Shown here piece by piece: positions 1 through 24,858 of a stretch of 25,769 bases of DNA. The DNA lies in the IMG/VR virus record IMGVR_UViG_3300049020_000084, positions 1 through 25,769 of that record. The stretch is one strand, 5' to 3'. The notes under the pieces are model-generated. The model was not told where the DNA came from. It made no database searches and saw nothing but the letters and a program-made list of their open reading frames with translations. Origin of the DNA: a virus. The first letter of the stretch is position 1. Every line of letters begins with the position of its first letter. The translations under genes and the position numbers were made by a program.

Positions 1-726
1 TGCCGGCGTGCCGCGGGCGAGTCCGTAGCTGACCCTGGCCTCGGCCAAGAACCGGGGCCTGTAGAAATTCCAGAGGTCGACCTCGATCTGCTCGGCCTCC
101 TCCGCGAGCGCGGCCGCCCTGCATTCGCGAGCCTCCACATCGCTCCGCGTCTCGCCGAGGTCGAGCTGGCGCCCGCGGAGCTCCGCAGCGGCATCCCGGA
201 GCTTCTCGGCCTGCCCGCGCGCCGCCAGCGCCCGGTCGAGCAGCGCCTCCGATGGCGCGAACGGCAGCCCCACCGGGTCGCAGTCGTCGCCGCGGCGGGT
301 GATCTGCAGGCGTCCCTTGCCAGCGAACGAGACCCGCGCCGAGAACACGAGCAGCGCCTGTCTCGTCTCGTCCGGCTCGTGGATCCGCACCGGCTTCCCG
401 GCCGCCTGGGCCTTCCTGATGGTGTCCCACGTGCCGCGGCAGCCTGGCCAGGGAAACGCCTCGACCTCGTCGCAGTCCGCCACGATGTCGCCGTTCCGCC
501 GCAGCCCCGCGCCCATGTCCCGCGAGCCGTCGGCGCGTTCCCACTGCGCATGGTGGACCGTCACGCCGAGGCCGCACTGCCTCGCGGCGAGCTCGGCCAC
601 GGTGTCCACCCCGTCGGCGCCGCCTGACACGACGTGGATGCCCTCCGGCGCGCGCTCGCGGACCCGCTGCCACACCTGGGCCAGGGCCCGGTGCGCGCGG
701 GCGCCGATGATGACGACGCGGGTCAC
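1..726 (-). CDS. SLOG-family (YspA/DUF2493-like) protein with probable C-terminal DUF488 domain, partial
   Basis: The reading frame starts at a GTG at 726 and runs off the left edge (242 codons seen). The N-terminal part has the hallmarks of a YspA/cpYpsA-related SLOG Rossmann domain: a TRVVIIGAR strand-loop at residues 2-10, HVVSGGADGVDTVAE at about 32-46, and the AGLRRNGDIV segment followed by DEVEAF. SLOG domains bind nucleotide-like ligands. From about residue 125 the LLVFSARVSFAG...LQITRRG...LPFAPS pattern resembles DUF488-type domains that I associate with such proteins. The rest of that domain lies outside the window. It overlaps the sigma-factor stop by GTGA, so the two are probably translationally coupled. 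The ligand and biological role are unknown. The SLOG call is firm, the DUF488 call less so. Confidence 0.8.
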   Translation of the reverse strand, partial: MTRVVIIGARAHRALAQVWQRVRERAPEGIHVVSGGADGVDTVAELAARQCGLGVTVHHAQWERADGSRDMGAGLRRNGDIVADCDEVEAFPWPGCRGTWDTIRKAQAAGKPVRIHEPDETRQALLVFSARVSFAGKGRLQITRRGDDCDPVGLPFAPSEALLDRALAARGQAEKLRDAAAELRGRQLDLGETRSDVEARECRAAALAEEAEQIEVDLWNFYRPRFLAEARVSYGLARGTPA

Positions 727-2704: not shown

Positions 2705-3339
2705 CTTGGCTCCTCTCCGTAGCCCGGCCACCCCTGCGCGCGGAGTACGGCGGCGATGTCGGCCGGAGACCATCCCTTTGGCTTGAGCGCCTTGCCGTTT
2801 GTGTCCTTCCCGCCTCCGGCCTTGGCGACGTTGCACGCGTGGACGGCGGAGAAGACCGCGCCCTCGTCGATGCCCAACTGCACCGCCGTGCCGGACGTGA
2901 CGTAGTGCAGGTCGGCAAGCTCGTGCGCGAGAGACGGCAGTTGAACGGCCACGTCAGCGTCGCGGACGATGCGCATGATGTCCTCTCGGGCGTAGCGAAG
3001 CGCCACGCTGTCGAGCATCGCCTCCAGCACCTCGAACGCTTCCTCCGCGATGAGCCGAGCCCGGAGCCTCACCTCGTCGTCGCTCGGCACCGTCGGCGTC
3101 GTCCGCACCGGGAAGTCCAGCGCCCGGTGGAACTCGGTCACCATCGCCTGGAACGGGCTCGCTCCCGCCCGGAGCCGCCGGTTCTCCTCGACGAGCTCGG
3201 TGCCGCGCGTCTGGAGGCTGTCGACGTGGCGCCGCAGGTGCGCCAGCTCAGCGATCGCCAGCTCCAGCGTCTCGCGCGCGCCAGAGCCGGCCGGCTGCGC
3301 CTCGGCGAGGGAGCGGAGGGCGGGGAGGATGTCGGTCAC
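2701..3339 (-). CDS. MazG-like nucleotide pyrophosphohydrolase
   Basis: A 212-aa protein with a helical, Glu/Arg-rich N-terminus (about 20-58, possible coiled coil) followed by an all-alpha NTP-pyrophosphatase domain. The metal-binding motifs are visible: AEEAFEVLEA (Glu99, Glu100, Glu103) and HELADLHYVTSGTAVQLGID (Glu140, Asp143). They are followed by the family's VHACNVAK...KALKPKGWSPADI tail (Asn170, Lys173). The family hydrolyses (d)NTPs to monophosphates plus PPi. In phages it adjusts nucleotide pools or alarmones. GTG start at 3339 overlaps the DUF5131 stop (GTGA). Confidence 0.9.
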   Translation of the reverse strand: MTDILPALRSLAEAQPAGSGARETLELAIAELAHLRRHVDSLQTRGTELVEENRRLRAGASPFQAMVTEFHRALDFPVRTTPTVPSDDEVRLRARLIAEEAFEVLEAMLDSVALRYAREDIMRIVRDADVAVQLPSLAHELADLHYVTSGTAVQLGIDEGAVFSAVHACNVAKAGGGKDTNGKALKPKGWSPADIAAVLRAQGWPGYGEEPR

Positions 3340-9209: not shown

Positions 9210-9785
9210 TCAGAAGGGCACGTCGTCGTCGAGGTTGCTGCCGTTGTTGAACGCGCCAGCGTGCTGGTCGTAGCTGCCGGCTGGAGATCCTCCGCCGTAG
9301 CCGCCGCCGTTCGCGTGCCCGCCGCGCGCCCCGTTGCTATGGCCTCCGGAGCCCCACCCGTTGCGCAGCCGCGCCGCCCACCCGCGTGCGCGCGCCGCGT
9401 CCTTGCGCTTGTAGACGGCGCCCCTGCGCTTCTTCTCGTCGGCGTCCTGCTCGGCCATGTACGCGCAGGCGTCGAGGTACTTCGCCATCGCGTCGAGGTA
9501 GTCGGGCTCGGTCTCCGAGAAGCGGTATCCGACGTAGGACGCGCCGCGCCAATACTTCTCCTTGGGGTCGAACTTGATGGTCGGGTCCCCGTGCTGGCCG
9601 TCGAGGTCGCGGTCGTCGGCAATGGCTCCCTCCGCGGGGCCGGACCCGGAACCGCCACCGCGCGGCGCGCTGCCAGTTCCGTTGCTCGCGCCACCGCGCT
9701 GGACCGCCGTCTTGATCTCCGCCACGTCGCGCTGGAGCTGGAGCAGCGCCGTCAGGATCTGGTTGTTGTACTGGTCTGGGCTCAT
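9210..9785 (-). CDS. RecT-cassette protein with SSB-like acidic C-terminal tip (191 aa)
   Basis: The extreme C-terminus is NNGSNLDDDVPF, the acidic tip by which bacterial SSB proteins recruit partners, preceded by a Gly/Asn-rich flexible linker (about 145-180). No OB fold is evident. Instead there is an N-terminal helix (MSPDQYNNQILTALLQLQRD), a Gly/Ser linker and a compact conserved-looking domain (FDPKEKYWRGASYVGYRFSE...YLDAMAKYLDACAYMAEQ...RKDAARARGW, about 72-140). It overlaps RecT by ATGA. Likely an ssDNA- or recombination-partner protein acting with RecT/YqaJ; the middle domain's family was not identified. Confidence 0.7.
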   Translation of the reverse strand: MSPDQYNNQILTALLQLQRDVAEIKTAVQRGGASNGTGSAPRGGGSGSGPAEGAIADDRDLDGQHGDPTIKFDPKEKYWRGASYVGYRFSETEPDYLDAMAKYLDACAYMAEQDADEKKRRGAVYKRKDAARARGWAARLRNGWGSGGHSNGARGGHANGGGYGGGSPAGSYDQHAGAFNNGSNLDDDVPF

Positions 9786-10651
9786 GAATTGGCCCTCTGC
9801 TGGAGGCGCTCGCGCGCGGCGTCGGTGCGGGAGGGCTCGGGAGCGGGCGATGGGTCGGCAGCGGCAGCGTCTTCAGCCACGTCGCCGAGCACCTCGATCA
9901 CATCGCCGTAGTCGGGCGCCTCGCCCGCCTCGGCCACCGCCTGATGGTGAAGCGCGCGCTCCAGGCGCTCCTCGGACAGCGGGAGGGACTTGCAGAGCCG
10001 GCGCACCGTCGTCTTGCGATACATCTCCTCCGTGTCCGTCTTCCACGGGCCGTCGTCCGCGGACTTTGATCGCTTCCTGATGCCGTCCAGCTGCGCGATC
10101 GTCATGAACTCGAACAGCTTCGCGCCGTTCTTCATCTCGGCGACGGCGTAGGCGCCGATGACCTTTCCGGCGTCCTCCTCCGCGAGGAACGGCGCGTGGA
10201 CGATCTTCTGTTCGGTGCCGTAGTCGATGGCGAACGTGTCCCGCTCGTAGACCACGCGCGACTGGATCCACTGCACCTCGCCGCTCTGCACCGCCAGCTT
10301 TGCCAAGCCGCGGTATCCGGGAATGAACTGGGCCTCTTTCTTGAACGGCACGAGGTAGCCGAGGCCCAGCGCTGTCCCCGGTTCCAGCCCGAGCGCGCAC
10401 GCCTGGGCCGTCGCGAGGACGATCGACTGCGGGGTGCAGTCGAGCAGCGCGGGCGTCCTGCTGACCGAGGACGTCACGATCCGGACCATGCGGTCGATGG
10501 TGACGTGCTTCGGCAGCAACACGGCCAGCGTCTTGCTCGCTTTGGCCAACTCTTCCTTGATGGCCTTGAGTCGCGCCGCGGGGCCTCTCACCACGGCCGC
10601 GCTGCCGTTGCCGTTCGTCGTCGTCATGTTCGCCGGTGCCTGATTCGCCAT
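9782..10651 (-). CDS. recT: RecT-family ssDNA-annealing recombinase
   Basis: A 289-aa protein with a clear RecT core. Recognisable segments are VTIDRMVRIVTSSVSRTPALLDCTPQS (about 49-76), ALGLEPGTALGLGYLVPFKKEAQFIPGYRGLAKLA (about 86-120) and SRVVYERDTFAIDYG. IGAYAVAEMKNGAKLFEFMTIAQLDGIRKRSK and YRKTTVRRLCKSLPLS follow. RecT anneals complementary single strands and promotes strand exchange in phage recombination, together with a 5'-3' exonuclease. Here the YqaJ nuclease is immediately upstream and an SSB-tailed protein downstream. The N-terminal 30 residues are Asn/Thr-rich and the C-terminal 45 acidic/Pro-rich, both probably disordered. Confidence 0.95.
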   Translation of the reverse strand: MANQAPANMTTTNGNGSAAVVRGPAARLKAIKEELAKASKTLAVLLPKHVTIDRMVRIVTSSVSRTPALLDCTPQSIVLATAQACALGLEPGTALGLGYLVPFKKEAQFIPGYRGLAKLAVQSGEVQWIQSRVVYERDTFAIDYGTEQKIVHAPFLAEEDAGKVIGAYAVAEMKNGAKLFEFMTIAQLDGIRKRSKSADDGPWKTDTEEMYRKTTVRRLCKSLPLSEERLERALHHQAVAEAGEAPDYGDVIEVLGDVAEDAAAADPSPAPEPSRTDAARERLQQRANS

Positions 10652-12230: not shown

Positions 12231-12240
12231 AGCGTCCTCC

Positions 12241-12459
12241 TCAGCAGAACCCAATCTCAGCCACCCTGTACACCGCCACCCCACCATCCCACCCAAGACC
12301 GGCGCGCACGCAGAGCGCCGCCTGGGGCACCACGCCGCAGACGCAGCCCGGAGCCTCGCAGGCCACCGTGCGCCGGCCGATCCAGCCGGGTGCGTGGAAC
12401 TCCTCGCGGATGGCGCCGGTGCCACGGCAAGCCGGGCACGTGATGGCGATGGCGGTCAC
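12241..12459 (-). CDS. Small zinc-finger protein (72 aa)
   Basis: GTG start at 12459 (GTGA overlap). Residues 8-15 read CPACRGTG, the DnaJ-type CxxCxGxG half-site. CEAPGCVCG near residue 34 supplies the second Cys set. The remainder (LCVRAGLGWDGGVAVYRVAEIGFC) is Gly-rich. It lies 10 nt before the exonuclease start. Probably a metal-stabilised small binding protein; function unknown. Confidence 0.7.
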   Translation of the reverse strand: MTAIAITCPACRGTGAIREEFHAPGWIGRRTVACEAPGCVCGVVPQAALCVRAGLGWDGGVAVYRVAEIGFC

Positions 12460-16872: not shown

Positions 16873-17120
16873 GCGGCCTCCAGCCCGGCCGAAGCCACCT
16901 CGCCGGCGTCGAGCGCCGGGTCCGCCACCACCTCGAGCCCGCGCTCACCGTGCTGGAGCACGCAGCGGATCTCGCTCAGCGCCTCGGAGCGGTACGGCTC
17001 CTGGAGCGCAATGAGCTCCCGGTCGCTGAGCTCGCTAGCGAACAGCGAGAGCTCCTCAACACCGAGCCCCTCGGCCCAGCGGTCACGGCGGACGGTGTAG
17101 GTGGGACGGCTGGAAGACAT
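16869..17120 (-). CDS. First gene of the leftward early operon, hypothetical (83 aa)
   Basis: ATG 17120 has GAGGAGG upstream. The protein starts polar/basic (SSSRPTYTVRRDRW) and then has a helical WAEGLGVEELSLFASELSDRELIALQEPYRSEALSEI segment; ends AGLEAA. It lies about 33 nt downstream of the predicted start site of the operator-controlled leftward promoter, the position of immediate-early phage genes. Unrecognised; not an obvious N-type antiterminator. Confidence 0.65.
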   Translation of the reverse strand: MSSSRPTYTVRRDRWAEGLGVEELSLFASELSDRELIALQEPYRSEALSEIRCVLQHGERGLEVVADPALDAGEVASAGLEAA

Positions 17121-17131
17121 CGGGCCTCCTC

Positions 17132-17148
17132 GGGCGCAGCGAGCGCCC
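17132..17148 (-). other. Hairpin in the leader of the leftward transcript
   Basis: GGGCGC (17132-17137) and GCGCCC (17143-17148) are perfect arms around a 5-nt loop. They lie between the predicted start site (about 17153) and the ribosome site of the first gene. A stem this close to the 5' end could protect the message from decay or serve as a protein-binding site. Confidence 0.5.
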
Positions 17149-17159
17149 TGATGAGGCCT

Positions 17160-17188
17160 ACGTTAACGTTTGGAAACGACGCCGTCAA
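17160..17188 (-). promoter_or_regulatory. Leftward early promoter
   Basis: Minus-strand TTGACG (17183-17188), 17-nt spacer, TAACGT (17160-17165). The -10 lies in the palindrome CGTTAACG of operator A, and the operator covers most of the spacer. The rightward promoter at 18417-18445 has exactly the same hexamers and spacing. Predicted start is near 17153, giving a leader of about 33 nt to ATG 17120. Confidence 0.65.
17161..17179 (+). promoter_or_regulatory. Operator A (19-bp repeat CGTTAACGTTTGGAAACGA)
   Basis: Identical over 19 bp to operator B at 18437-18455. It overlaps the -10 and spacer of the leftward early promoter, so bound repressor would block RNA polymerase. The core CGTTAACG is self-complementary; a second half, GGAAACG, resembles an adjacent half-site. 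Confidence 0.7.
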
Positions 17189-17193
17189 GCGGG

Positions 17194-17212
17194 TCGTTGA
17201 AAAACGTTAACG
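17194..17212 (-). promoter_or_regulatory. Operator C (inverted, imperfect copy)
   Basis: On the minus strand this reads CGTTAACGTTTTTCAACGA, matching operators A and B at 16 of 19 positions, differing only at positions 12-14. It lies upstream of the leftward -35, inverted relative to A. The palindrome centres of A and C are 44 bp apart, about four helical turns. This suits cooperative binding on one DNA face. Confidence 0.6.
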
Positions 17213-17833
17213 CTATCCGGTCTTGACAACGATGGTGTGGGTGTGCCTATCCGGTGACGCAGCGCAGAGATACCCGGAATCCGGAGGGCCGTCGTCGGCG
17301 ATGTCGCGGCACTCCGTCTCGTCGAGCTCTGGAGCTCCTCGGCGGATTACTCGGCTCGGGGTCACGACCGCCGCCGGCCTATCTGTGATCTCGGCAACGC
17401 GCAACGCAATGCATGCAGCCGGGGCGCGGAAGATCAGCGAGGTCCGGACGATGCGGTCGAGGAGGGGCCAGCCTTCGGTGCGGTGCCACACGCTGACCAT
17501 CGACGGCGATGGCGCCATCAGCCACGCGGCGACGCCACGCGCGGTCGACCGCGCCGTGCTGACGCGCATCCCGTCGCGGCGGAGGAACCACTCGGCAATG
17601 ACCCGCATCTGGATCTCGTGTCGACGCACGGTCGTGAGGCCGGGCCGCGTCCACAGGGTCGGCACAGAGCGACGAACGACGAGCCCGCCCTCGGCCAAGC
17701 CGGCGTACGCCGCCTCCTCGCTCCCCATGGTCATCCCCAGGCCCCTGGCCAGGTGTTCCGCGTCGACCCGGTCGCGTTCGCTCAGCCCGCCGAGGCGAAG
17801 AATGTCAGCACCGAAGCGTGCGTACGGGTCCAC
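17213..17833 (-). CDS. ImmA/IrrE-like protein with degenerate HExxH (pseudo-metallopeptidase)
   Basis: A 206-aa protein starting at GTG 17833 behind GGGGAGGG. The layout follows ImmA/IrrE: N-terminal DILRLGGLSERDRVDAEHLARGLGM (about 10-34), a strand turn, then RRHEIQMRVIAEWFLRR (70-86). The HExxH expected in this helix reads RVIAE (77-81), so neither zinc-binding His is present. It is followed by STARGVAAWLMAPSPSM (97-112), the normally conserved (E/D)xxANxFAxxLLMP stretch. ImmA peptidases cleave the adjacent XRE repressor to induce prophages or ICEs. Here the partner repressor gene lies just upstream (61 bp), but cleavage chemistry looks lost. It may instead bind the repressor. Its stop codon abuts operator C. 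Confidence 0.75.
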   Translation of the reverse strand: MDPYARFGADILRLGGLSERDRVDAEHLARGLGMTMGSEEAAYAGLAEGGLVVRRSVPTLWTRPGLTTVRRHEIQMRVIAEWFLRRDGMRVSTARSTARGVAAWLMAPSPSMVSVWHRTEGWPLLDRIVRTSLIFRAPAACIALRVAEITDRPAAVVTPSRVIRRGAPELDETECRDIADDGPPDSGYLCAASPDRHTHTIVVKTG

Positions 17834-17894
17834 CTGTACACCCTCCCCGTAGAGAACTGTGGAGAAGTTACCAATGTTTCAATCAGGTGTCCAC

Positions 17895-18407
17895 CTACGA
17901 GCTTCGGGGCGGCAACAATTTTATCTCCTGTGACGCAGAAAACTCTTGCGAGCGAAGTTCGGTCTCTTTCGCAGTGATTTTGGTGATCCACACCAAAACC
18001 GGCAGGTCTGTTTCTGAGGCCACGACCTCGTCCATGACGCTCTGAATCGCCTCCTCTGAGTACTTTGCTTCTCGGCAGATATCGGCAGCGCGCTCCCTTG
18101 CAGAGCGCACGGACTCGTCGAGCGGCTGCCCAAGTCCGAACGCGAGCCAAGCCGGCGAGACGTCGAGCGCCATGGCGAGCTTGAACAGCGTCGCGGCCTG
18201 CCCCGCCACAATTTCGGTGCGCTTCGTCAGCTTGCTCACCGCGCCGCCGGTGGAGCCAGCGGCCTCCCCGAGCTCGTTCGTGCCGATGTGCTTCCGGCCC
18301 ATCGCCCAGTTCAGGCGCTCTCCTAGGCTAGAGTTTGTCCAATCTTTGCGCTCGGTCACGAGCACATCCTGGACCGGGTCCCACGGCCTCGTCACGTGGT
18401 TCGTCAT
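17895..18407 (-). CDS. XRE/CI-like transcriptional repressor
   Basis: A 170-aa protein with an HTH at about 28-92: LGERLNWAMGRKHIGTNELGEAAGSTGGAVSKLTKRTEIV, then KLAMALDVSPAWLAFGLG. The last 75 residues are helical then a strand segment (TDLPVLVWITKI). There is no LexA/CI-type Ser-Lys peptidase domain, so RecA-stimulated self-cleavage is not expected. It is divergent from the Cro-like gene with only 47 bp between starts, and is followed by the ImmA-like gene. The 3' half is noticeably less GC-rich than neighbours. Likely the lysogeny repressor that binds operators A, B and C; binding is inferred. Confidence 0.85.
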   Translation of the reverse strand: MTNHVTRPWDPVQDVLVTERKDWTNSSLGERLNWAMGRKHIGTNELGEAAGSTGGAVSKLTKRTEIVAGQAATLFKLAMALDVSPAWLAFGLGQPLDESVRSARERAADICREAKYSEEAIQSVMDEVVASETDLPVLVWITKITAKETELRSQEFSASQEIKLLPPRSS

Positions 18408-18416
18408 CGGCTCGCC

Positions 18417-18445
18417 TTGACGGAAACGAGACGTTGCGTTAACGT
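18417..18445 (+). promoter_or_regulatory. Rightward early promoter
   Basis: TTGACG (18417-18422), 17-nt spacer, TAACGT (18440-18445), the same hexamers and spacing as the leftward promoter. The -10 lies in operator B. The expected start site (about 18452) is only a few bases before ATG 18455, and no strong ribosome site precedes it, so the first transcript may be leaderless. GGAAACG occurs three times here (18422, 18448, 18464). Confidence 0.65.
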
Positions 18446-18455
18446 TTGGAAACGA
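18437..18455 (+). promoter_or_regulatory. Operator B (19-bp repeat CGTTAACGTTTGGAAACGA)
   Basis: Exact copy of operator A. It covers the -10 of the rightward promoter, the predicted start site and the first base of ATG 18455. It is also within the 47-bp space shared with the repressor's own control region, so it could autoregulate the repressor. Confidence 0.7.
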
Positions 18456-18724
18456 TGACGAACGGAAACGCGGTCCCGCCCGCCGGGGCGCTCATCGATG
18501 CGATCGCCGCGGTTAAGGGCCTCACGGTCGAAGGCCTCCTCGACGAGGTGAACCGGCTGCTCGTTTCGCGCGGCCAGGGGGAGATCTCTCGCATCACCTG
18601 GTGGAAGTGGCGATCCGGCCAGAGTGCACCGAACCGAGACCACGCCATCGCGGTCGAGGACGCCCTCGGTATATCTGCGCGCGCGTGGGCCACCCATGCG
18701 CAGCTCTCCACCAGGGAGGCGTGA
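18455..18724 (+). CDS. Cro-like HTH regulator (89 aa)
   Basis: ATG 18455 was taken as start (a TTG at 18446 lies inside the operator). Residues about 22-78 look like a compact HTH: LTVEGLLDEVNRLLVSRG, ISRITWWKWRSGQSAPN, DHAIAVEDALGISARAW. The WWKWRSGQSAP segment is in the recognition-helix position of XRE-type domains. As first gene of the rightward operator-controlled transcript, opposite the repressor, it sits where Cro does in lambda. Role inferred from position and fold. Confidence 0.75.
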   Translation: MTNGNAVPPAGALIDAIAAVKGLTVEGLLDEVNRLLVSRGQGEISRITWWKWRSGQSAPNRDHAIAVEDALGISARAWATHAQLSTREA

Positions 18725-19159: not shown

Positions 19160-19915
19160 ATGGCCCGCACCAAGTCCCTCTCCGTCGAGGAGAACGCCCA
19201 CGTGGTCGATGCGCTCCGCCGCATCGTTGCCGGCTTTCCCAGCCAGGCCGAGGCCGCTGCCGCTCTCGGCATGACGCAGCAGAGCATCTCGCGCGGCATC
19301 GGAGCAGGCCCGGTCGGCGTCGACATGGCGCTGGCCGTCGCTCGGCACCTGGGGGTTGGGTTCGAGGCGCTGATTGGGGGAAGCGAGGCAAAGTCCGGCT
19401 CGAACGGCGCGGGGGAGCGTGTTGCAAGGCGTAGAGGGCCGCGCCCCTCCATCGTTTCGCCCGCACGTCGCGATACGCTGGGGGAGCGCGTCCAGCATGC
19501 GATCTGCGTGCGCGGCATGAGCCTCAACGCCCTCAACAGGGCGATGGGGAAAGGATCTGGGTTCGCGAGCCGCTTTCTGGGGGAGGAACGGCGGCCGCGC
19601 GCTGACACCCTCGCGAAGCTCGCCGCGGCGCTGAACGTCTCGACGGACTGGCTCGCGACAGGCGAAGGCCGCGGGCCCGAGGCGCCTGCCGATGCACTCG
19701 CGCCCACCGTGCGTCAGGTCCACGAGCCTCTCGTTCCTGCCCAGCAGGACGACGAGGCGCACTCCCTCAACCACGTCCTCCAGCGGATGATCAAGGCGGC
19801 CGAGGAGCGAGGTGCGGAGACGGCGCGGCGTGCTGGCCTGCGCAACGCCACCGACGCCGAACTGCTCGATGAACTCCAGAGGCGCCTGTCCGAGCGCAAC
19901 CAGGAGGCGAGGTAG
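19160..19915 (+). CDS. Regulator with two tandem helix-turn-helix domains (251 aa)
   Basis: The first HTH is at about 12-70 (HVVDALRRIVAGFPSQAEAAAALGMTQQSISRGI...LAVARHLGVGFEAL). The second is at about 106-165 (LGERVQHAICVRGMSLNALNRAMGKGSGFASRFLGEERRPRADTLAKLAAALNVSTDWLATG). They are joined by a basic linker (ERVARRRGPRPS). The C-terminal 80 residues are a helical, charged region (LNHVLQRMIKAAEERGAETARRAG) for oligomerisation. Both HTHs are XRE-like but clearly different from each other. A single chain could bind two half-sites. The junctions with both neighbours share a repeated sequence. Confidence 0.8.
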   Translation: MARTKSLSVEENAHVVDALRRIVAGFPSQAEAAAALGMTQQSISRGIGAGPVGVDMALAVARHLGVGFEALIGGSEAKSGSNGAGERVARRRGPRPSIVSPARRDTLGERVQHAICVRGMSLNALNRAMGKGSGFASRFLGEERRPRADTLAKLAAALNVSTDWLATGEGRGPEAPADALAPTVRQVHEPLVPAQQDDEAHSLNHVLQRMIKAAEERGAETARRAGLRNATDAELLDELQRRLSERNQEAR

Positions 19916-22611: not shown

Positions 22612-22778
22612 TGGAGGCGAGCATGAACCGAGACGACAGCGACGACCTGCCCATCGACACCCCCCTGGTGCTGAGCGAGGGGGTGATGGATACGGTGTCC
22701 GATCTGCTTCTGCAGCTTTTCCTTGAGGACGGCGATGCAACAGCTGACGAGTTGGGGGAAGAGCGCCCGGCAGCCTGA
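22611..22778 (+). CDS. Small acidic protein upstream of the recombinase (55 aa)
   Basis: ATG 22611 sits in TGATG with the previous stop. A second ATG at 22623 has an ideal GGAGG 5 nt upstream and may be the real start. The product is acidic (MNRDDSDDLPIDTPLVLSEG, later LLLQLFLEDGDATADELGEE). It overlaps the recombinase start by 44 nt in another frame, so expression of the two is linked. Size and position fit a regulator of the recombinase, but nothing in the sequence shows it. Confidence 0.5.
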   Translation: MEASMNRDDSDDLPIDTPLVLSEGVMDTVSDLLLQLFLEDGDATADELGEERPAA

Positions 22779-24858
22779 TCGCTACTGGGCTTTCTACGTG
22801 CGTGTGACGCAGGAGGAGTCGGTGACGACGGACCTGTCGATCCCGAACCAGATCGCGCGAGCGAAGGAGCTTGCTGCGGCCAGGGGCTGGACGGACTGGC
22901 GCGTCTACGTCGAGCCGCGACACGTCTCCGCCGAGCTCTGGACCGACAAGCGCCCAGCGCTGCGGGATCTCCTCGCGGATGTCGCCGCTGGCCGCGTCAT
23001 CGGCGTCTGCGCCCGCCACCAGGACCGGCTGTGGCGCGGCAGCGAGATCCAGAGCCGCGTGCTCCGCGCGCTCCGCGAGATGAACGTCGAGCTCTGGGAC
23101 TTCGCCGCCAAGTTCGACTACAAGTCAGCGCACGGGCGCTTCTCGCTGCAGGTGCTCGGCGCGGCCTCGGAGCTCGAGGTCAACCTCGTTGCCGAACGCG
23201 TCCGCGAGATGAAGCGCGGCAAGGCGCGGTCCGGGAAGGTCGGCGGGGGCCCGCCGCCGTTCGGCTACACGTCGCAGTCGCGTCGGATGCGCGAGCTCAT
23301 GGCCGGGGGGATGAGCAAGGACGAGGCGTACCGGCAGGCGTGCACGGAGATCCCCGTCGGCAAGCGGTGGTTCATCGACGAGCGTGAGGCCGAGGTCGTC
23401 CGGTTCATGTTCGAGCTCTACACCTCGTCGCAGTACCGCTACGGATGCAAGCGCATCACCCGGCAGCTTCACGCGCGCGGCTACAAGACCCGCAACGGGT
23501 GCGCGTGGCTCGCGAACGCCGTGCGCAAGACGATCAACAACCCGGCGTACGCTGGCTTCACGACGTTCGACGAGCAGGCGTACGAGCAGCGCGCGCCGTC
23601 GCGTCGCCCTCGTCATGCGCAGACGCTGTTCCCAGGCGAGCACCCGCCGATCATCTCGCCCGAGCTCTGGCGCCAGGCCCAGGCGATCAAGACGACCGAG
23701 AACACGGTCAAGCGCGCGAAGCCGGGCCCGAAGGCTAGCGAGTTCACGCTGACCGGTCTGCTTCGCTGCCCGAGCTGCGGCTGCAGGCTGGTCGGTAAGG
23801 CGAGCCCGCACTCGGCGCGCCGGTATTACATCTGCTCGCGTCGGCACTCCGGAGGCCCCGAGCTGTGCTCGTTCCCGCTCGTCGACGCGCTCGGCCTCCA
23901 GCGCGAGGTCTGGGGATGGCTGTATCGGATCCTGCTGTCGCCCGAACTCGTCATGGCGCACCTCGAGCGGCTGGAGCAGAAGCTGGAGAAGCAGCGCCCC
24001 GCGTCGGAGCGTCAGGTCGCTGCCCTGACGAAGCGTCGCGACGACATCAACAGCCGCCTCGGGAAGTACTACGCGAGGTTCGAGGAGTCGTCGGACCCGT
24101 CGCTCGAGGTGACGTTCGCGGACCGCATCCGCGAGCTGAAGGCCGAGCTTGAGGCTGTCGCCGTCGGCCTCGCAGAGCTGAAGGCCAAGGCGGCACCGGC
24201 GCCGAAGCGCCCCACCGTGGAGCAGGTGCGCCAGCTCCTCGCCGCACTCCGGAGGCGGCTCGACGAGCACCCGGAGCAGCAGAAGCCGCTTCTGCAAGAC
24301 TTCCGCCGCGACCACGACTTCCAGGTGTCTGCGATCTCGCACACCGACTTCACGGTCTCGATCGCGCTGCCGGTAGCTCCGCACACGTTCACCGTGGGCC
24401 TGAGGGAACAAGCTGCGGAAAGCCCGAGCCCTCTGACCCACGCAGTTAGGTTGTCTGGCAAACTCCGGATCGAGCCGGAGCCTGACCCGATTGCGATGTG
24501 GGTCACTGCCGAGACGGAGAAGGCCCCGCGCTGCGCGTGCGGCTGCGGCGGGGCCGTCGTCGTCCTGCCGCGTCACCACAGCATGGGTATCCCGCGCTAC
24601 ATCCACGGGCACCATTACCCCAGCCCGAGCCGCCTGATGGGTCTGCACCGCCAGATCGCGGAGGTCCATGCGGCGGGGCTGCTCACCGCGGCCGACGTCG
24701 CGCGCGAGCTCGGCGTGGGCGCGACCACGGTGCGCCGCTACGACGGCGTGCTGTGGCCTGCCGCGATGCGACACGGGACGGGGAACGTGCGCGCCTACAC
24801 GCGCGAGCAGGTGGGAGAGATCCGTTGCGCGCTGAAGAAGCAAGGAGTGATCCGATGA
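22735..24858 (+). CDS. Large serine recombinase (integrase) with Thr at the catalytic position and C-terminal HTH extension
   Basis: ATG 22735 is preceded by GAGGA. The 707-aa product has a resolvase-type catalytic domain (about 17-165). YVRVTQEES carries Thr25 where Ser is the nucleophile in the usual YxRxS, followed by LSIPNQIARA. Also present are ARHQDRLWRGSEI and FSLQVLGAASELEVNLVAERV. The recombinase domain follows (GGPPPFGY, about 180-300). The zinc ribbon is RCPSC (345-348)...YYICSRR and a long coiled coil is at about 400-485, as in phage large serine integrases. Beyond this a CACGCG (600-605)...YIHGHH (622-627) Cys/His element is followed by a MerR-like HTH (LLTAADVARELGVGATTVRRYD, about 649-670), making it longer than typical. 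Expected role: site-specific integration/excision of this element. Confidence 0.88.
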   Translation: MQQLTSWGKSARQPDRYWAFYVRVTQEESVTTDLSIPNQIARAKELAAARGWTDWRVYVEPRHVSAELWTDKRPALRDLLADVAAGRVIGVCARHQDRLWRGSEIQSRVLRALREMNVELWDFAAKFDYKSAHGRFSLQVLGAASELEVNLVAERVREMKRGKARSGKVGGGPPPFGYTSQSRRMRELMAGGMSKDEAYRQACTEIPVGKRWFIDEREAEVVRFMFELYTSSQYRYGCKRITRQLHARGYKTRNGCAWLANAVRKTINNPAYAGFTTFDEQAYEQRAPSRRPRHAQTLFPGEHPPIISPELWRQAQAIKTTENTVKRAKPGPKASEFTLTGLLRCPSCGCRLVGKASPHSARRYYICSRRHSGGPELCSFPLVDALGLQREVWGWLYRILLSPELVMAHLERLEQKLEKQRPASERQVAALTKRRDDINSRLGKYYARFEESSDPSLEVTFADRIRELKAELEAVAVGLAELKAKAAPAPKRPTVEQVRQLLAALRRRLDEHPEQQKPLLQDFRRDHDFQVSAISHTDFTVSIALPVAPHTFTVGLREQAAESPSPLTHAVRLSGKLRIEPEPDPIAMWVTAETEKAPRCACGCGGAVVVLPRHHSMGIPRYIHGHHYPSPSRLMGLHRQIAEVHAAGLLTAADVARELGVGATTVRRYDGVLWPAAMRHGTGNVRAYTREQVGEIRCALKKQGVIR

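Follow-up and report, generated by a model that had tools for sequence, protein, structure and literature searches.

The 25.8-kb IMG/VR record analysed here at its full length of 25,769 nucleotides (the window) covers part of the genome of an unclassified temperate phage, and very probably it carries a lambda-plan immunity region, i.e. the switch by which a temperate tailed phage chooses between lysis and lysogeny. The 19-mers that tag the two early promoters of this region are almost certainly binding sites of the switch proteins, since in related phages the layout is the same while both tags and regulators differ. Three relatives collinear with the window came from searches with RecT and the exonuclease: L006 (98 kb), L007 (102 kb) and L013 (126 kb). 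An earlier note on this DNA had proposed operators in two divergent early promoters with a repressor and a Cro-like gene between them; this arrangement is borne out by the relatives, in which the block is swapped and has operator motifs of its own. The features of the region are listed in Table 1.

Table 1. Features of the immunity region and its two arms in the window
Feature	Position	Strand	Remarks
First PL gene, 83 aa	16869..17120	-	89% identical over 71 aa to the L013 counterpart
PL leader	17118..17156	-	Hairpin 17148-17132, SD GAGGAGG 17131-17125, ATG 17120; kept in 4/4 phages
PL	17160..17188	-	-35 TTGACG 17188-17183, 17 bp spacer, -10 TAACGT 17165-17160; predicted start about 17153
OL1, operator copy 1, CGTTAACGTTTGGAAACGA	17161..17179	+	Over PL -10; exact 19-mer, 0 expected by chance
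OL2, operator copy 3, CGTTAACGTTTTTCAACGA	17194..17212	-	16/19 matches, inverted, immediately upstream of PL -35
Accessory gene, 206 aa	17213..17833	-	Between repressor and PL; without family match; positional counterparts in L006, L007 and L013
CI-like repressor, 170 aa, XRE/DicA-like HTH	17895..18407	-	Profile matches
PR	18417..18445	+	-35 TTGACG 18417-18422, 17 bp spacer, -10 TAACGT 18440-18445; predicted start about 18452
OR region, three GGAAACG repeats (18422, 18448, 18464)	18422..18471	+	
OR1, operator copy 2	18437..18455	+	Exact 19-mer over PR -10; overlaps the cro ATG by its final base (A)
Cro-like regulator, 89 aa	18455..18724	+	First gene of the rightward operon
Large serine integrase	22723..24858	+	End of the rightward arm

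The two exact copies of the 19-mer (OL1 and OR1) lie 1276 bp apart, start to start, in agreement with the 1.28 kb given before, and the inverted copy (OL2) was recovered by a mismatch search. When up to three mismatches were allowed, three matches to the 19-mer were found in the 25.8 kb and none in 100 dinucleotide shuffles. The hexamer GTTAAC occurs three times in the whole window, once in each operator site. The distance between OL1 and OL2 had been put at 44 bp; recomputed from the centres (17170 and 17203), it is 33 bp, about three helical turns. Also the impression that the operator sequence is unfamiliar proved right, as the exact 19-mer is absent from all other IMG/VR contigs and from the relatives.

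Both exact copies have the same orientation (+ strand) although PL and PR diverge. The 8-mer CGTTAACG, being palindromic, gives TAACG on both strands. Thus one orientation of the operator can carry the -10 element for PL as well as for PR. The exact dyad of the operator is ambiguous; the core could be CGTTT-GG-AAACG or CGTT-N10-AACG. An exact copy and a 16/19 copy make up the OL region, and the OR region has one exact copy and half-site-like repeats. A 13/19 operator match at 18453-18471 overlaps OR1 and the start of cro. Possibly this match and the GGAAACG repeats are additional, weaker operators. A search of the window for operator triplets in the style of lambda, with three cooperative sites in OL and another three in OR, found none.

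The promoters claimed around both exact 19-mers stood in part. TTGACG-17-TAACGT was found exactly on both strands, but the -10 element is weak: TAACGT agrees with TATAAT at three of six positions (T1, A2 and T6), and a standard sigma-70 promoter scan listed no promoter at PL or PR. These two promoters are the sole occurrences of TTGACG-(16..18)-TAnnnT in the window. In the window, L006, L007 and L013 together (about 88 kb), TTGACG-17-TAnnnT is present five times, always at a PL or PR immunity promoter, compared with a shuffle mean of 0.03, an excess which is partly built in because the pattern was derived from the same sites.

The predicted start of PR lies about 3 nt before the cro ATG. From the -10 element to the cro start there are 9 nt in the window, 6 nt in L007, 6 nt in L006 and 8 nt in L013; in all four phages the cro start codon is at the predicted transcription start or not more than about 3 nt from it. 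These distances suggest that in each of the phages the cro mRNA made from PR probably has no leader or almost none.

The open reading frames of the repressor and the Cro-like protein have the extents originally assigned to them. The repressor carries a lambda-repressor-like helix-turn-helix according to profiles of phage repressor families (phrog_4, E 3.8e-8; phrog_2328, E 6.6e-8; DicA subfamily, E 7e-5), although it scores below the curated Pfam and NCBIfam thresholds. A search of its 170 residues for an S24/LexA-like C-terminal domain, of the kind cleaved in the SOS response, gave no S24 match in Pfam or NCBIfam. The profile matches of the Cro-like protein are weak (HTH_3, E 0.2; phrog_2328, E 0.03). 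Its single-sequence AlphaFold model has a pLDDT of 74, and Foldseek related this model to the TP901-1 CI NTD and to P22 c2 with prob 1.00 and a TM of 0.58-0.65, with no E-value under 0.001. The weak profile match and the model of moderate confidence point to a lambda-repressor-like HTH protein.

An accessory gene, absent from the earlier description, lies between the repressor gene and PL. The structure model of its 206-aa product (pLDDT 51) is unreliable. A gene without known family always occupies this place (L006 3259-3705, L007 2689-3192, L013 2362-2826). By eye, the products in L006, L007 and L013 resemble a degenerate ImmA/IrrE without HEXXH, a candidate assignment that profile searches did not support. 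No support came from Pfam, NCBIfam, a PDB sequence search or profile comparison with the accessory protein of the window; PF06114 (Peptidase_M78) had no match in the window or in the L006 and L007 records, in a search in which the controls matched; and the aligned accessory sequences contain no HEXXH motif. A second, larger XRE/CI-like HTH protein is encoded at 19160-19915 by the third gene after PR, within the rightward operon (HTH_3, E 2.8e-10). Possibly it is CII-like or a second regulator.

The early operons of L006, L007 and L013 align with the window, but the immunity block does not. The similarity to L013 ends at 17156, the predicted start of PL, and restarts at 18724. With L007 it restarts at 18722; on the PL side, a short alignment with L007 extends to 17167, within the -10 element. 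The similarity to the relatives thus restarts at the cro stop codon (18722-18724). These limits show that the swapped block consists of little more than OL, the accessory gene, the repressor, OR and cro. The repressor, cro and accessory gene that the relatives have in this slot differ from those of the window. Homology between the repressor of the window and those of the three relatives was not detectable in profile comparison; thus the cassette of the window looks to be of separate origin. The four phages are predicted to be heteroimmune. With only three relatives, the co-variation of operator and repressor is qualitative. L004/L005, with 35% identity over the repressor N-terminus but unrelated surroundings, were set aside. 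In viral contigs, searches with the repressor, the Cro-like protein and the integrase returned distant relatives or none, and neither the repressor nor YqaJ was found in the 84,980 bacterial and archaeal genomes searched.

The swap also bears on the question of whose binding sites the 19-mers are. They could be sites of a host regulator (e.g. of LexA or XRE type) at both early promoters, with the phage repressor acting elsewhere. The 19-mer counts cover phage contigs, and induction may depend on another factor given that the repressor of the window has no detectable S24 domain. Yet a host regulator predicts an identical site in all the phages, if the host is common to them, whereas the relatives with common neighbour genes have other promoter sequences, which are swapped together with the repressor/cro block. 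We therefore regard a host regulator as very improbable and favour regulators encoded within the block itself.

The operator motif at the immunity promoters is a different one in each relative. In L007 these are the 21-bp palindromes CTTAACTTAACTCAAGTTAAG at PR (1999-2019) and CTTAACTTTAGTTAAGTTAAG at PL (3259-3279), which are 1.26 kb apart, and a degenerate third copy is located at 2049-2069. With up to three mismatches the two strong sites are the only matches in 101.6 kb, and both flank the repressor. L006 has GTATTG-9-CAATAC, exact at PL and with 9/12 matches at PR; at three mismatches background matches appear too. In L013, ACGGAAA-5-TTTCCGT at PR is the sole match in 126 kb. This clean palindrome is present at PR only, and PL has just TTTACATT in common with it. 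The same operator at both early promoters is hence exact in the window, likewise in L007 and approximate in L006. The third site lies upstream of PL in the window and near the repressor promoter in L007, and so it is not a common feature at PL.

Short exact repeats around an early region occur in iteron- or centromere-type elements, and such repeats are present in the window. That they form a replication/partition element of this kind, or integrase-accessory sites, and are at promoters by coincidence is nevertheless hardly credible: there are only two or three copies, each at a promoter and none near the integrase, and the pair of strong L007 copies is confined to the flanks of the repressor.

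The PL leader has counterparts at 3780-3812 in L006, 3283-3317 in L007 and 2937-2974 in L013. In all four phages a 6-bp hairpin stands immediately before GAGGAGGCCCGATG, despite different operators and a first gene that is not always the same, and each phage has a single exact GAGGAGGCCCGATG. The stem contains one variable pair (G-C, A-U or C-G across the phages) and five invariant ones, so that the covariation support for the hairpin is thin. The strong SD following the hairpin may be partly sequestered. One could go further and regard the stretch between the PL start and the cro stop as a plug-in immunity cassette of standardised build, to which a control layer in the shared PL leader is added. 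The four phages would then hold four mutually orthogonal repressor/operator sets in one promoter frame (TTGAC-type -35, operator over the -10, leaderless or near-leaderless cro), and the fixed leader RNA would add post-initiation control, either translational or by nut/put-like antitermination, in all immunity groups. Taken jointly, these propositions are speculative and rather unlikely to hold as a whole.

In the switch as we infer it, which includes binding, transcription starts, operon extents, competition, looping and the question of which regulator uses which site, the 170-aa repressor and the Cro-like protein would compete for the operators. OL1, which would be assisted by the weaker inverted OL2, covers the -10 element of PL, and PL would drive the leftward early operon with RecT, the YqaJ exonuclease, a sigma-like factor and others. 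OR1 covers the -10 element of PR, from which cro and a rightward operon extending up to the integrase would be transcribed. Repressor bound to both sites would silence both arms. Cro, made from the leaderless or near-leaderless PR mRNA, would stop the synthesis of repressor and, at a later stage, also shut down the early promoters. The spacing of 1.28 kb would permit looping between OL and OR. An integrase is present in all four phages, a serine integrase in the window and a tyrosine integrase in L006, L007 and L013, which fits temperate growth.

Alternatively, the switch could be real but the 19-mer be used by Cro alone or by the repressor alone, with the other regulator acting via GGAAACG half-sites or protein contact. 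There is some room for this, with GGAAACG repeats beside OR1 (at 18422 and 18464) and the precedent of PY54 Cro, which binds one site only, adjoining the repressor gene (PMC4488713). The presence of the 19-mer at both PL and PR, on the other hand, suits a repressor that silences both arms, and we consider use by a single regulator to be a minor possibility beside competition of both proteins for the same sites.

The region resembles that of lambda (cI, cro, OL, OR) in that the repressor operon lies between divergent PL and PR, cro comes first in the rightward operon and operators are located within both early promoters. The exchange of the whole cassette, operators and regulators, among relatives is as in lambda imm434/imm21. 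Unlike lambda, the window has one or two operators per control region instead of three, its repressor lacks a detectable S24 autocleavage domain, no N-like antiterminator was recognised in the window, and cro rather than cI appears leaderless. To our knowledge, its operator sequences are also unlike the lambda operators. The system would work like the lambda switch, but strictly speaking it is not lambdoid, since tests for operator triplets and for an S24 repressor were both negative.

Other phages come close in single traits. As in immB of the telomere phages N15/PY54, repressor and cro are divergent and operators are few (PMC4488713). The cro mRNA of PY54 is leaderless, and the one operator of its Cro (OR3) lies apart from the cro promoter (PMC4488713); in the window, unlike in PY54, the operator is on the -10 element of PR and is repeated at PL. 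The paaR2/ydaS region of CP-933P likewise combines a short repressor (PaaR2) with a Cro-like protein (YdaS), operators of its own and a leaderless regulator mRNA (PMC8630535). There, the repressor mRNA is the leaderless one and a toxin-antitoxin pair lies within the repressor operon (PMC8630535), whereas in the window the leaderless mRNA would be that of cro. The Cro-like protein of L007 matches YdaS and P22_Cro weakly.

The window differs from the relatives elsewhere too. At 12235-12247 it is without about 400-420 bp that are present in L006, L007, L008 and L013. The alignments on either side share about 13 bp, which resembles the trace of a deletion between short direct repeats, or else the other phages have gained an insertion. 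The PolB-type exonuclease ORF has a changed start region as a result. The RecT proteins of the window (9782-10651) and L007 (10001-10882) are mosaic: their first 15 residues are almost the same and the tail is conserved, but the overall identity is about 49% with L007 versus 95% with L006. The tyrosine integrase of L006 is found at a distance from the switch comparable to that of the serine integrase of the window. Thus the integration module is also swapped among these phages.

The phage lineage was found in none of the bacterial genomes searched; its operators are new and the type of circuit is textbook. The window and its relatives provide four switches, predicted to be heteroimmune, from a lineage of temperate phages so far uncharacterised, and the operators of these switches can be read from the sequence alone. 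Repressor-operator specificity thereby becomes directly testable, and the repressor/operator pairs could act as orthogonal regulators for high-GC bacteria.
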